Positions 20,643 to 28,768 of a stretch of DNA of 35,676 nucleotides are shown piece by piece. The notes beneath the pieces were generated by a model, which worked only from the letters and a program-made list of their open reading frames with translations, made no database searches and was not told the DNA's origin. This DNA comes from a virus. Both the position numbers and the translations under genes were made by a program. The number at the start of each line of letters is the position of its first letter. The first letter of the stretch is position 1. The stretch lies in the IMG/VR virus record IMGVR_UViG_3300032236_000554, positions 1 to 35,676 of that record; one strand, 5' to 3'.

Positions 20643-20806
20643 TCTGTTCCTTTGTTGATTAGGCGGCGAAGGTCGCTGAGTGCGATGTCGCCACGCATGG
20701 GCGGGTTCGTTGCTAGGTCGTTCAATAGTTTGATGATGCGTTCGCGTTCGGCGATGATGCCAGTCTGGAAGGCGATGCTTGTCAGGCTGGCGGGTTGGCC
20801 GGTCAT
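20639..20806 (-). CDS. Small 55-residue protein between TET-like and acidic-protein genes
   Basis: The sequence reads MTGQPASLTSIAFQTGII, then AERERIIKLLNDLATNPP and MRGDIALSDLRRLINKGTE. The start overlaps the TET-like stop (ATGA) and the stop overlaps the next start (ATGA), so it is embedded in a translationally coupled chain. Predicted to be two helices. The ERERIIKLLNDL segment resembles the helical tail of many small actinophage proteins of unknown function. Confidence 0.65.
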   Translation of the reverse strand: MTGQPASLTSIAFQTGIIAERERIIKLLNDLATNPPMRGDIALSDLRRLINKGTE

Positions 20807-21690
20807 GGTTTGGCCTTCTTCGGTTTGATTTTGGTTTCGGCTTCGCCGGTCAACACTTGTTTCATGTGGTCTTCGCGTTCGGTTCTGATGGTTTTGCCGC
20901 GGGCGGTTTCAACGGCAAAGGTGAAGCAATCCTTCATACCGCGCAACGCATAGTAAACGACGCTGTAACGGTATGCGCCTTCGGCACGGGCTTCCATGGG
21001 GGTGACGCCGTGAACGAACTTGTAACCAGGGAAGAACAGAACCCAACCGTCGCGACAGGCGATTGTTGCGTTGTATTCAGGGAAGTTCAGATAACCGCCG
21101 TTCATGTTCTTGCGTATAACCGGCATTGCTGACCAGGTTTGAAAGTTGAACGCGTCGCGGTGGTATGGCAACTGGCTGGATTTGTTGATGACGCCCGAAG
21201 TCCATAAAGCGTCGTCTGTCATTCGCCATTCGTCGGTGATGCCTGACCCGGCCATGGTTTCGACATCGGCTTCGAATAGGTGCGGCGCGAACTCTTTGAA
21301 CATGTTGGCGAACTTGGTGGCGAAGGCAATCAGAACGCCGTGTTCTTCGGGCTGTTCGCGGGCTAGGGTTGTGGGCTTACAGGCGTCACGGCCACGCATT
21401 GCGGCGCGGGGTGACATTCCGAAGGTGCGCGACAGGTTGGTGATGCGTGACGCGCTTCGGGTGATGTTTGCCCCATACTTGACAGACAGAACCGACCGGC
21501 GCAACAAGGCGACTTCGTCTTCCATGGGGAAGTATGCCAAGAACGGTTCATCGGTTTCGGCGTCGACATAGATGCCGGCCTGGTTGATGTTCGCGTCGAT
21601 GACTGGCACGGTGTCGCCAACCATGGCTGTGGCTTCGTCTGGGGTTATCACCCTGGCCACTTTGATGATGGGCAGGTCGCTCAGTTTCAT
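20803..21690 (-). CDS. TET/JBP-like 2-oxoglutarate/Fe(II) dioxygenase
   Basis: A 295-residue protein. The double-stranded beta-helix core shows the iron-binding H177-x-D179 (QLPYHRDAFNFQTWSAM), a distal H227 (GYKFVHGVTPM) and R241 for 2-oxoglutarate (YRYSVVYY), with GGYLNFPEYNATIACRDGW between them. Upstream, SRTFGMSPRAAMRGRDACKP is the N-terminal signature of the phage branch of this superfamily. Phage TET-like enzymes are known to oxidise 5-methylcytosine in DNA to 5-hydroxymethylcytosine. It overlaps the ParB-like gene (ATGA) and precedes the kinase and terminase. A C5-cytosine methyltransferase elsewhere in the window could supply the substrate. Confidence 0.88.
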   Translation of the reverse strand: MKLSDLPIIKVARVITPDEATAMVGDTVPVIDANINQAGIYVDAETDEPFLAYFPMEDEVALLRRSVLSVKYGANITRSASRITNLSRTFGMSPRAAMRGRDACKPTTLAREQPEEHGVLIAFATKFANMFKEFAPHLFEADVETMAGSGITDEWRMTDDALWTSGVINKSSQLPYHRDAFNFQTWSAMPVIRKNMNGGYLNFPEYNATIACRDGWVLFFPGYKFVHGVTPMEARAEGAYRYSVVYYALRGMKDCFTFAVETARGKTIRTEREDHMKQVLTGEAETKIKPKKAKP

Positions 21691-22352
21691 GCGTGGGGTG
21701 CGCTTTCCTTGAAGAAGATTTCCATCAGGTTGACGATGGCGTCGGCGTTGGTTTCAAGGTTCGCGGTCTTGCGATGTTCGGCCAGTTTGTCGATTACCCA
21801 GACATAGGTGTCGTTTGGGTAATCAAGTATGACCATTCGGGTCGCCTTGTCGTTGTATCGTTCGGTGTATTCAGCGAGTGATGGCCGGCGTTCGACATTG
21901 TTTTCGTTCGGCACGGTTTCGGCCTGGGTGTTGATGACGGTGTCGATGTTGATTTGTGGCACGGTTGCTTCTTGAATACCGGCGATTAGGTCGTCGATGT
22001 CGTCGTCGCTGTAACCTGTGCCATCAAGGTCGGCCAGGCCGGCCAATAAGTCGGCCAGGGCGGTGTCGTCATAACTGCCCAGGTCGGCGATGCGGTTGTC
22101 GAACGCGACGATTTTGGCGGCGGTGTCGTCATCAACATCAACGAACACGACGGAGATGTGCGGCCATCTAAGGGCTTGGGCGGCCATAAAGGTGTGATTA
22201 CCCGCCAAGATGGTGTTTCCCCGTCTGTTGACCGTCAGCGGCTTGTATTGGCCGTATCTGGTCAAACTGTCGGCAATCGCTTCGATGTTGCCTTTGCGCG
22301 GGTTGCCTGGATAGGTGGTTAGGTCGCCCAGGGCGACTTCTTCGATTTCCAT
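21687..22352 (-). CDS. ParB-like nuclease-domain protein
   Basis: A 221-residue protein. The ParB N-domain is clear: VALGDLTTYPGNPRKGNIEA, then IADSLTRYGQYKPLTV, the G-N-H-T box (51-54), and an AAKIVAFDNRIADLGSYDD segment. A second conserved region (TRMVILDYPNDTYVWVIDKL, about 172-191) follows an acidic linker. Proteins of this type sit next to methyltransferases, TET/JBP and terminase genes in phages and are thought to handle or nick modified DNA. Start ATG 22352 has AGGATT upstream; a 19-residue in-frame extension runs into the previous gene and is rejected. Confidence 0.82.
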   Translation of the reverse strand: MEIEEVALGDLTTYPGNPRKGNIEAIADSLTRYGQYKPLTVNRRGNTILAGNHTFMAAQALRWPHISVVFVDVDDDTAAKIVAFDNRIADLGSYDDTALADLLAGLADLDGTGYSDDDIDDLIAGIQEATVPQINIDTVINTQAETVPNENNVERRPSLAEYTERYNDKATRMVILDYPNDTYVWVIDKLAEHRKTANLETNADAIVNLMEIFFKESAPHA

Positions 22353-22362
22353 GTGTCCAATC

Positions 22363-22665
22363 CTAGGCTTCGACGCTGGGGTTGCCAAGAACCAGGGCGC
22401 GGAACTCACCTTCGTATAGTTCTGTGACCGCTTCTTTGATTTTGTAGTGGGCGATGTTGTAAGCGTTGCCGCCTTCGAATAGGGCGTTGTATTGGTTGAA
22501 CGCTTTGTTGAACGCCTGTTCAGCGATTGGGGCGAGATGGTTGCCGTTGACTTCTAGGCCTTTCCACATGATGAACGCGCGGGCGGCGGCGTCGACACGG
22601 TTGGCGCGTTCGGCTTCGATTAGTTCGTGCGGGTCTGGGTTGTTTTCGTCAGTTAGGTAAGTCAT
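22363..22665 (-). CDS. Helical protein of unknown function
   Basis: A 100-residue protein, mostly helical (HELIEAERANRVDAAARAFI, then AEQAFNKAFNQYNALFEGG). Strong ribosome binding site (CCGGAAGGACAAACC) before ATG 22665, which lies inside the end of the preceding nuclease-like gene. Family not recognised. It precedes the ParB-like gene by 10 nt and is probably co-transcribed with the modification cluster. Confidence 0.6.
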   Translation of the reverse strand: MTYLTDENNPDPHELIEAERANRVDAAARAFIMWKGLEVNGNHLAPIAEQAFNKAFNQYNALFEGGNAYNIAHYKIKEAVTELYEGEFRALVLGNPSVEA

Positions 22666-26773: not shown

Positions 26774-27148
26774 CTACGCCGTTGGTTCGAACCCGTCAAG
26801 CGGATGCCCCAGAACGGCCACAGGCGACCGCGTGAAGTCATCAGCCAGGGCGAACCAAGTCTGTGTCGTGTAATCAAACACGGGGGCGTCAGCGGGCGTT
26901 TGCCATGAAGACAACTTCCACCCGTTCAGCCTGGCCGCTTCGGCGAACCTGGCGTCGGCTTCGACCTGACCATTGGCCAGGGAACAGAACACGATGATGT
27001 TGGCCGGGCTGTCAGCCTTCACCCGGTTGCCGTTGCCCATGCCGCGGCCAAGACGATGCTGTGGCACAAGCGTCGCGTCAGTTGTGCCGCAATGCCAACA
27101 ACGACCTAGGTCGCGGTCAAGATACTTTTGAAACTGTTTCGGCGTCAT
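26774..27148 (-). CDS. HNH-like zinc protein
   Basis: A 124-residue protein from ATG 27148. CWHCGTTDATLVPQHRLGRG is followed by SPANIIVFCSLANGQVEADA. The C-x2-C, H, N and C spacing resembles HNH-type nucleases found in actinophages. The C-terminal part reads GWKLSSWQTPADAPVFDY. The start overlaps the upstream stop (ATGA); an ATG four codons earlier (27160) is less likely. It is the last gene of the module C operon. Nuclease activity is inferred from the motif. Confidence 0.6.
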   Translation of the reverse strand: MTPKQFQKYLDRDLGRCWHCGTTDATLVPQHRLGRGMGNGNRVKADSPANIIVFCSLANGQVEADARFAEAARLNGWKLSSWQTPADAPVFDYTTQTWFALADDFTRSPVAVLGHPLDGFEPTA

Positions 27149-27489
27149 GCGTGTTTCCATTGAAGTTCAACCTGGCGGGCGATGACGCTGACCGCCACCT
27201 GTGCGCTGTCGATGCTTTTCAGTTTCGCCTTCACACGGTTCAGTTCGGCCTTCGCAATGTCTAGTTGTAACTTCGCTTCAAGCGCGCCCAGTTTCGCCCT
27301 GGCGGCCTTTTCGGGGGCTGTGCCAGGTTCAGCGTTCAGCAACCCAACGGCTAGGGTTCGTTCGTGTTCGCCATCAAGAACGGCGACCTTCACTTCGGCT
27401 TCGTAAAGGGCGTTGATGCCCTTCTGGCTCTCGCCCATTAGCCGGTTCAGTTCAGCGATGACTTGGGGCGGCGTCGTGATGTCAGTCAT
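27145..27489 (-). CDS. Coiled-coil protein of unknown function
   Basis: A 114-residue protein (ITTPPQVIAELNRLMGESQK and onward), Ala/Lys/Glu/Leu-rich and predicted to be one long coiled coil. Members of this conserved small actinophage family often lie near replication or nuclease genes. ATG 27489 is preferred over an in-frame TTG at 27498. The upstream 60 nt are AT-rich and could hold a promoter (TTGACT on the minus strand), but no good -10 is seen. Confidence 0.65.
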   Translation of the reverse strand: MTDITTPPQVIAELNRLMGESQKGINALYEAEVKVAVLDGEHERTLAVGLLNAEPGTAPEKAARAKLGALEAKLQLDIAKAELNRVKAKLKSIDSAQVAVSVIARQVELQWKHA

Positions 27490-27550: not shown

Positions 27551-28222
27551 TCAAAACAACCCATCTAACAGTTCGCGTAACGCCGCTTCTGCCTGTTGTG
27601 GCACAACGCCGTTACCACAGGCTTTTAGTTCTTGTTTGCGGGTCAACCCGATGTCTGTGACCCATCCGTCAGGCAAACCCATCAAAAACTCCGTGAACTT
27701 CGATGACAACCTGCGCGCGCCATTTTTACCGTCTGGTTTGGTTGGTTCTGGCGATGACCGCCCTAGGATGCTTTCCCATCTTGCGATGGCTGGCGCAAAC
27801 TTTCCCCAGTTCGTTGAGCGTTCAGTTTCCCAAACCTCGCTTGCCAAAGTTGTGCGGCGGCCTTGGTTGTGACCTGTGTTTTTGCTGTCATCGACCTGCG
27901 GCGTTGGCAACAGTTCATTGACGAACACGGCGCGCGACAATGTATCGGTTTGCGTCACGCCGTTGCGACGATGTTCTTTGTTACCGTCTTTATAGTCGCG
28001 CGCCGTTGGGGTAGGCAACGATGAAGACGCGTTCGCGTCGATGTGGCGCGCCGGCGTCGGAAGCGCGAAAAGTTGTCCACCGACAGTCATACCCGAGTTC
28101 GGCCATACTTCCCGCCACGGCTCCCAATGCTCGCAGATTAGGTTTATCAGGGGGGCTTCCCATACACCAAGAACACGGTTCCAGGTCGCTATGGGCATTT
28201 GCGCTGAGTATTCCACGGACAT
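27551..28222 (-). CDS. C5-cytosine methyltransferase, C-terminal part (TRD, motifs IX-X)
   Basis: About 223 residues. Three LPTP units (LPTPARHI, LPTPTARDYKDG, LPTPQVDD) mark the target-recognition region. Near the end are the motif-IX-like RRLSSKFTEFLMGLPDGW and motif X (ACGNGVVPQQAEAAL). It lacks motifs I-VIII, which lie in the upstream overlapping frame, so the two products together make one methyltransferase, as in the two-subunit M.AquI. Start is uncertain: TTG 28228, ATG 28222 (SD-like GGTGG upstream) or ATG 28198. VWPNSGMTVGGQLFALPTP, encoded inside the overlap, matches related proteins, so an upstream start is favoured. Confidence 0.8.
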   Translation of the reverse strand: MSVEYSAQMPIATWNRVLGVWEAPLINLICEHWEPWREVWPNSGMTVGGQLFALPTPARHIDANASSSLPTPTARDYKDGNKEHRRNGVTQTDTLSRAVFVNELLPTPQVDDSKNTGHNQGRRTTLASEVWETERSTNWGKFAPAIARWESILGRSSPEPTKPDGKNGARRLSSKFTEFLMGLPDGWVTDIGLTRKQELKACGNGVVPQQAEAALRELLDGLF

Positions 28223-28595
28223 TTTCAATTACCACCAATCTAGGTCGGATTGTTTCGATAGCGCGGGCAAACTCCGACCATAACCCGCTTCGTGTTCCAT
28301 CTTTTAGACCGGCGCGTTTGCCGGCCAATGACAGGTCTTGACATGGAAAACCACCTGTCAGAATGTCGACCTGTTCGACCTGTGTGAAGTCGACCTTTGT
28401 TACATCGCGATAGTTCGGCACACCTGGGAAGTTTTTTTCTAGTATTTTGCTTGGCGCGTCATCGTATTCGCAATGCCAAATAACTTTGCCACCCGTGACA
28501 GCGGCGACCGCTAGGTCAAGACCACCGTAACCACTAAATAAAGACCCGATTGTCATTTGTGAACCATTTGATTGAACGGTAACAACATTTTTCAT
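27990..28595 (-). CDS. C5-cytosine methyltransferase, N-terminal part (motifs I-VIII)
   Basis: A 201-residue protein. Motif I FSGYGGLD (20-27), motif IV GGFPCQDLS with the catalytic C85, motif VI ENVRG (124-128) and motif VIII HRRERVFIVA (185-194) are all intact. The protein stops seven residues after motif VIII, before any target-recognition domain. The ATG overlaps the zinc-ribbon stop (ATGA); an internal ATG (MTIGSLF) lacks a ribosome binding site. The product would transfer methyl groups to cytosine C5 in DNA once paired with the downstream part. This region is visibly more AT-rich than its neighbours, suggesting later acquisition. Confidence 0.88.
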   Translation of the reverse strand: MKNVVTVQSNGSQMTIGSLFSGYGGLDLAVAAVTGGKVIWHCEYDDAPSKILEKNFPGVPNYRDVTKVDFTQVEQVDILTGGFPCQDLSLAGKRAGLKDGTRSGLWSEFARAIETIRPRLVVIENVRGILSANAHSDLEPCSWCMGSPPDKPNLRALGAVAGSMAELGYDCRWTTFRASDAGAPHRRERVFIVAYPNGARL

Positions 28596-28768
28596 CGGGC
28601 TTCACGACCCCATCCTGTGCCGTTGAATGTGACGGCCGGGGCTTCCCAGACACGGGTCGCGGTCATGCCGCATTGGTCACACTTGACGGCCTGATGAATG
28701 TCTTCGGTTATCGGTTGCGTGACAACCGTTTCGTGTTGCTCAGGGCAACGGTATACATAACTAGCCAC
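28592..28768 (-). CDS. FmdB-like small zinc ribbon protein
   Basis: A 58-residue protein from GTG 28768. ASYVYRCPEQHETVV is followed by VKCDQCGMTATRVWEAPAV and ends TFNGTGWGREAR. The cysteine spacing and the closing V-x-F-x-G-x-G-W are the FmdB-type zinc ribbon pattern often seen in phages. AGGAAGG lies about 8 nt upstream of the GTG, inside the end of the previous gene. Possible regulatory or nucleic-acid binding role, not shown. Confidence 0.75.
   Translation of the reverse strand: MASYVYRCPEQHETVVTQPITEDIHQAVKCDQCGMTATRVWEAPAVTFNGTGWGREAR

Follow-up and report, generated by a model that had tools for sequence, protein, structure and literature searches.

According to passages of PMC3404938, the two-subunit C5-cytosine methyltransferase M.AquI (CYCGRG) carries motifs I-VIII on its larger chain and motifs IX-X on its smaller one, and M.EcoHK31I (YGGCCR) consists of two polypeptides, one with motifs I-VIII and X and the other with motif IX (PMC3404938). 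For M.SssI, according to the same passages, fragment complementation works best if the C-terminal fragment begins in the region separating motif VIII from the recognition domain (PMC3404938). Hence, a division of the kind described below is a workable one. Out-of-frame coding has also been met within a phage methylase gene, since the ShiLan report describes an out-of-frame HNH insertion inside a mycobacteriophage methylase gene (PMC11855218). Three DNA methylases are listed in the pertinent passages on the Tweety genome, where an overlap goes unremarked (PMC2884959).

The locus analysed here lies in a window of 35,676 nucleotides, the whole stretch of viral DNA in IMG/VR record IMGVR_UViG_3300032236_000554. 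The window is most likely part of a tailed phage whose host is an actinobacterium, and its gene content includes terminase, portal and tail genes and WhiB. Two overlapping genes on the same strand, F1 and F2, are the subject of this study, and their features are collected in Table 1. A Pfam profile search matched F1 to PF00145 over model positions 1-164 of 324 with 145 bits, and TIGR00675 (dcm) matched it at 130 bits. F1 contains the PCQ and ENV of the catalytic half of C5-cytosine DNA methyltransferases (PF00145), both of which were invariant among 19 aligned F1 proteins. The sequence-only reading had placed motifs I-VIII in one frame between 28595 and 27990, which agrees with the open reading frame and with the PF00145 match.

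The F2 frame opens, stop to stop, at 28228 (TTG) and ends with the stop at 27551. It starts with the overprinted N-terminal segment, which is followed by LPTP units and then by motifs IX-X, whose invariant columns were read from an alignment of 35 F2 proteins. The family's motifs IX-X are therefore found on F2, with its C-terminus matching PF00145 positions 269-322 at 19.9 bits, slightly below the gathering score of 22. As F1 covers positions 1-164 and F2 positions 269-322 of the same 324-position model, the two genes look like complementary halves. Moreover, F2 is by profile a member of phrog_1008 ("DNA methyltransferase") over most of its length: residues 8-221, counted from 28228, match positions 68-318 of 329 (3.4e-56). 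The family entry gives the name alone and is silent on an N-terminus overlapping another gene. The ORF and both profile matches also confirm the earlier placement of motifs IX-X, together with the putative recognition side, in a second frame, from 27551 to about 28222. The names and roles of motifs I, IV and VIII on F1 and of IX and X on F2 follow the usage for the family.

Table 1. Features of the F1/F2 locus and of selected neighbouring genes, in window coordinates
Feature	Positions	Strand	Details
F1, putative catalytic subunit, C5-cytosine methyltransferase motifs I-VIII	27990..28595	-	ATG 28595, TAA, 201 aa
F1 motif I, GSLFSGYGG	28521..28547	-	from sequence
F1 motif IV, GGFPCQ, with catalytic cysteine	28338..28355	-	from sequence; P84, C85, Q86 invariant
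F1 motif VI, E-N-V	28218..28226	-	likely F2 start (ATG 28222-28220) lies in its AAT-G bases
F1 motif VIII, HRRERVFI	28020..28043	-	from sequence
F2, putative second subunit, frame +1 of F1	27551..28222	-	likely ATG 28222, 223 aa
Dual-coding overlap, 233 nt	27990..28222	-	F1 motifs VI-VIII / F2 residues 1-77
GGTGGT, weak Shine-Dalgarno-like, inside F1 codons	28231..28236	-	8 nt 5' of F2 ATG
F2 predicted five-strand beta unit	28064..28192	-	residues 11-53, fully within overlap
F2 LPTP units 1 and 2, low-confidence linker	27809..28018	-	residues 69-138
F2 motif IX region, RLSSKFTEFLMGLPDGW	27662..27712	-	invariant L172, E178, M181, G182, G186
F2 motif X, GNGVVPQQA	27590..27616	-	invariant G203, N204, Q209, Q210, A211
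FmdB-like zinc-ribbon protein	28592-28768	-	4-nt overlap with F1 start
HNH endonuclease	26774-27160	-	downstream
Queuine tRNA-ribosyltransferase-like gene	20803-21690	-	phrog_6059, 4.9e-81
ParB-like gene	21687-22409		adjoins queuine tRNA-ribosyltransferase-like gene

The overlap measures 233 nt when counted from the F2 ATG and 239 nt from stop to stop. Taken by itself, the window shows nothing remarkable in a +1 frame that stays open for such a length (P = 0.067 when F1 codons are shuffled among synonyms), and the case for the use of both frames rests on relatives. We collected 251 loci from IMG/VR scans with F1 (of the window and two cultured phages) and with F2, from annotated phage records and from the window's own record; of these, 205 contained a near-complete F1 domain, and removal of near-duplicates left 154, the window included. 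In 91 of the 154, F1 stops past motif VIII and the C-terminal motifs lie in frame +1 (split), while 50 carry these motifs within F1's own ORF (fused). The other rows were nine without a found C-terminus, three split in frame +0 and one split in frame +2, the latter four being kept out of all test groups. All these counts come from related sequences and hence do not represent independent events. Coverage and 95% filters retained 201 loci of a further 416-locus alignment. Both overlapping ORFs are annotated in the finished mycobacteriophage genomes of Bruiser (78/77), Vorrps (6/5), Phanphagia (65/66) and Anthony (80/79), and the frame was verified as +1 for the Anthony and Phanphagia pairs.

The number of LPTP units before motif X ranged from 0 to 6 among the F2 proteins of the 91 split loci. 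A unit was also present past motif X in 27 of the 91, and certain unit types were found on both sides. This distribution suggests shuffling of the units.

The AlphaFold2 model of the window F2, built with 35 F2 proteins, had a mean pLDDT of 71. Residues 11-50, within the predicted beta unit, scored 94, 85, 87 and 84 in successive blocks of ten and most C-terminal helices were near 90, while the LPTP stretch was of low confidence. Against the PDB, the model gave no match at E < 0.001, and a profile search of PDB sequences returned nothing significant. Weak Foldseek and VIA-align matches (best Z 3.1) fell on the F2 C-terminus and pointed to C5 enzymes of the DNMT3/DRM group, with the beta unit barely probed. 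In a viral structure library, seven matches below 0.001 were obtained, of which three were unnamed and four named (two DNA methylases, one SAM-dependent methyltransferase and one uncharacterized protein). No known fold could be assigned to the beta unit. The overprinted domain has the look of a fold that arose de novo out of the catalytic gene and has persisted over great distances. A natural one-chain relative (L019), which falls in a supported group of four rows with the other three split, was predicted to form a full C5-methyltransferase (pTM 0.77), and its model aligned with M.HhaI over the full length (Z 25.2, rmsd 3.6, 266 residues aligned). Thus, F1 and the F2 C-terminus would be complementary parts of one enzyme fold.

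We consider it highly probable that the locus encodes a two-subunit C5-methyltransferase whose recognition-side subunit, F2, is overprinted on the catalytic gene F1. F1 would be translated normally and would supply the SAM-binding and catalytic half with motifs I-VIII. A ribosome would start F2 independently inside F1 motif VI in frame +1, and F2 would contribute a small beta domain whose coding sequence is confined to the overlap, the variable LPTP string and motifs IX-X. The two chains would then assemble into one methyltransferase, with methylation presumably being carried out by the pair. Target recognition is most likely the task of F2, because F2 material stands between motifs VIII and IX and is retained even in relatives with a fused F1; the beta domain and the LPTP units would form the recognition part.

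Three arrangements were distinguished among the relatives. In type A, to which the window belongs, F2 consists of the N-terminal segment, LPTP units, motif IX and motif X. In type B, found in distant phages with about 45% F1 identity, motif X is on F1 and F2 ends in an IX-like stretch, for example LNPxWVEWLMG, in the loci inspected. In type C (the 50 fused loci), F1 has both IX and X; F2 retains the start, the overlap and the N-terminal segment, carries one or more LPTP units in 47 of 50 and lacks motif IX throughout. The F2 N-terminal segment in frame +1 of F1 is the constant of all three arrangements. In type C, the DNA from motif VIII to the F2 stop showed rates of.283/.079/.061 at the three F1 codon positions (123 pairs); hence this stretch evolves as F2 though annotated as F1, and the linker is F2 read out of frame. 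On the F1 tree, no fewer than 12 transitions from one state to the other, split or fused, are needed, seven of them forced by supported branches.

The distant set comprised 42 loci, 37 of which could be parsed; the set contains some actinophage-like loci whose C-terminus is part of F1. Frame +1 was open in 34 of the 37 against 13.2 expected, and the profile of the F2 N-terminal segment matched 36. For these numbers, it should be considered that the pattern match is misplaced in L168, that the scored region starts further upstream in L411, L413 and L418, and that in L414 a stop just inside motif VI falls ahead of the scored region. The apparent survival of F2 after motifs IX-X moved to F1, like the overlap in very distant phages, goes beyond what was first read from the window. 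In one distant relative (L161), a single stop interrupts F2 in the overlap, and this copy has perhaps decayed.

Scans with F2 located the N-terminal segment in 77 of the best 80 actinobacterial loci, overlapping F1 in frame +1 in 77/77. The best loci of a viral scan with F2 gave 77 new ones, 75 with the segment and 75/75 overlapping F1 in +1. With the segment alone as query, all 80 among the best 80 loci overlapped F1 in +1. A scan of plasmids with a distant F2 gave no match. C5 enzymes without an open +1 frame do exist, as in Matisse and phi1207.3. Among the best 80 loci per scan, one frame is accordingly old and widespread while the other is absent outside the overlap, as in an overprinted gene. 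That the segment was never met apart from F1 fits its birth by overprinting on an older, universal F1, with the qualification that this holds for the best 80 loci per scan and that the conserved F1 partly shapes the +1 reading.

These surveys also bear on the view that F2, though a protein of its own, is no enzyme subunit and acts, for example, as a DNA-binding regulator or an anti-restriction factor. Its retention in the 50 fused relatives, where it is devoid of IX-X, would suit such a role. However, in the 91 split relatives motifs IX-X are missing from F1 and present on F2, and the N-terminal segment accompanied F1 in every best locus with a match. A function outside the enzyme is therefore considered unlikely.

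A start signal for F2 was sought in the F1 codons around motif VI. Among the 50 genes of the GC-rich fused group, 38 use AGA or AGG for the Arg of ENVRG (background 10%), 42 use GGA or GGG for the following Gly (26%) and 41 use AGT for the Ser that comes three codons later (3%). These biased codons produce a purine-rich Shine-Dalgarno sequence, a 7-nt gap and a GTG in frame +1. Of the 91 split genes, 65 spell the Asn of ENV as AAT (background 34%), yielding ATG, which is the version found in the window. GTG or ATG occupied the motif VI spot in 50/50 fused and 82/91 split genes, and neither usual start position was present in nine of the 91 split relatives. GGTG at spacing 10 was the commonest word before the best-scoring start (25/91 split loci), in a Shine-Dalgarno scan that matched words loosely and allowed several alternative starts, and is weak evidence; the codon bias at fixed places carries the start argument. 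The GGTGGT of the window is partly imposed by the F1 residues LVV. F1 motif VI codons are thus bent towards a Shine-Dalgarno sequence and a GTG or ATG for F2.

As a fallback, the sequence-only reading had offered a +1 frameshift joining the two frames. Under programmed +1 ribosomal frameshifting, F1 and F2 would form one product and the F2 frame upstream of the shift would be untranslated, for which one may cite that F2 carries on where F1 ends and that natural one-chain relatives exist (L019, L071). Such a mechanism, however, has no need for F2 to be open and constrained for 200 nt upstream, nor for a Shine-Dalgarno sequence and a start there; a frame of that kind would lack a start of its own and selection upstream of the junction, and F2 has both. 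In addition, a fused F1 already has its own IX-X, and F2 is retained anyway. We therefore regard frameshifting as improbable, although a minor fused product may occur, and the remark that the locus is more than a simple frameshift is supported by the F2 start and the upstream selection.

Overprinting of F2 on F1 predicts that the overlap is constrained in both frames. Openness of frame +1 was scored from 12 columns past the motif VI start up to motif VIII. It was open in 91/91 split genes against 14.3 expected under synonymous shuffling, and in 50/50 fused genes against 22.4 expected. Over the region from LRALG to motif VIII, frame +2 was open in 9/91 split genes (9.2 expected) and frame +1 in 91 (18.5 expected). 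In the upstream control, the +1 frame 5' of motif VI was open in 1/91 (1.4 expected). At four-fold degenerate sites, the chance of two sequences sharing the third base rose from 0.32 upstream to 0.54 in the overlap for split genes and from 0.45 to 0.61 for fused genes. Along F1, third-base identity was flat at about 0.3 up to codon 122, reached 0.39 at codons 123-134 and 0.80 at codons 135-146, so the jump occurs just past the F2 start.

Substitution rates were compared in 186 close pairs. At F1 codon positions 1/2/3, they were.088/.044/.374 upstream,.131/.045/.204 within the overlap and.363/.093/.048 past the overlap, where F2 is coding. As F1 position 1 is the wobble base of F2, its rise from.088 to.131 is what a +1 frame predicts. 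In three groups of genes, the Gly of F1 LGYD is GGG in 115/119, 56/58 and 18/19, the respective background frequencies being 11, 18 and 16%. GGG is the sole codon that leaves a Gly in F2, and this F2 Gly was invariant in the 35 aligned proteins. Two further tests did not separate the frames: the amino-acid identity excess over shuffles within the overlap was 0.194 for +1 and 0.156 for +2, because constrained silent sites lift identity in any frame, and a BLOSUM test of silent changes gave 0.208 versus 0.174.

The raised +2 identity is one reason to consider that F1 silent sites are held for RNA structure or codon choice, with the F2-like reading of the overlap a by-product and F2 starting later. 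Conserved F1 residues likewise contribute, as LGYD and a Trp partly impose S-G-M and G in frame +1. Against this, openness is frame-specific (91/91 for +1, 9/91 for +2), the start signals sit at the upstream edge of the overlap, the position-1 rate rises as the +1 wobble predicts, the +1 frame continues downstream as the sole coding frame, and the overlap product has a confidently predicted beta fold. Such a constraint alone is thus very improbable as the explanation. A sequencing or assembly error or gene decay, for which nothing speaks except the broken frame itself, has a negligible chance and is ruled out by the identical +1 split in the 91 relatives and by the annotation of both ORFs in the four finished genomes.

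The shared DNA thus shows selection on both frames, as expected of an overprinted gene: the check proposed at the outset found F1 silent sites constrained from the F2 start onwards, and the overlap part of F2, whose lack of conservation among homologues had been named as a possible refutation, is conserved. The proposed split C5-methyltransferase with a dual-coding overlap has accordingly withstood comparison, given the common +1 layout, the openness, the silent-site constraint and the selected start. Dual use of this DNA has been kept across hundreds of related phages and prophages, in which it has attracted little comment.

Some individual loci showed further features. In Philonius (L086) and the 50 fused loci, VA(D)PxGxR-like linker repeats resemble LPTP units read out of frame. 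The Philonius F1 ORF (L086:1161-2819) also contains a cysteine-rich, zinc-ribbon-like CxxC ... CC ... C stretch, flanked by the out-of-frame linker on one side and by the LPTP units on the other. phiC2 (L411) and Streptococcus phage IPP18 (L412), both low-GC phages, have ordinary one-chain C5 enzymes with an open +1 frame (P 0.00 and 0.01) in which typical F2 words are absent. Among the Gordonia phage Ailee-like loci (L243, L248), F1 of L248 is broken past motif VI and its +1 ORF reads like a homing endonuclease (LAYVAGLIDGEGCVH); an HNH endonuclease is annotated at the same place in phage Ailee.

Phage queuine tRNA-ribosyltransferase-like genes can serve 7-deazaguanine DNA modification. As the window holds a phrog_6059-type gene in addition to the C5-methyltransferase, two kinds of DNA modification may be at work in this phage.

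We give roughly even chances to a broader proposal, in which the recognition subunit of a whole branch of phage C5-methyltransferases was born by overprinting within the catalytic gene, its N-terminal beta domain never left the overlap, and motifs IX and X wander between the chains. If this is true, the long "linker" reported for many one-chain phage methylases in annotation would be such a subunit read in the wrong frame, and the branch may already have a studied member in M.EcoHK31I. Many phage records give one of the two ORFs or call the second "hypothetical", and specificity predictions for such methylases would take the wrong frame where recognition likely lies. Laboratory mycobacteriophages would open protein birth by overprinting to experiment. 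To our knowledge, a long same-strand overlap seldom encodes two parts of one enzyme, and few bacterial or phage overlaps have a comparable depth of comparative proof. No account of F1/F2 dual coding was found in the open-access literature.

Compared with the described systems, ShiLan resembles this locus in having an out-of-frame gene with a GTG start within a phage methylase gene, but that gene is a mobile insertion coding for an HNH endonuclease and not the methylase's own subunit. The "DNA methylase" pairs of Bruiser, Vorrps, Anthony and Phanphagia are overlapping ORFs at the same place, annotated as such by their depositors. The division at motif VIII had been likened to M.AquI, which is a fair comparison as regards the distribution of motifs I-VIII and IX-X over two chains (PMC3404938). 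By the same passages, the larger M.AquI chain holds part of the variable region, whereas everything past motif VIII is on F2 in the window. The N-terminus of the window F2 is moreover overprinted on F1 motifs VI-VIII, M.AquI being compared by motif placing alone. The motif division of M.EcoHK31I, by its published layout in those passages, equals that of the distant type B relatives and differs from the window, where F2 has both IX and X. The ORFs of M.EcoHK31I are also reported to overlap out of frame. Two-chain C5 enzymes were already known, and it is the long, deeply conserved dual coding that is new.
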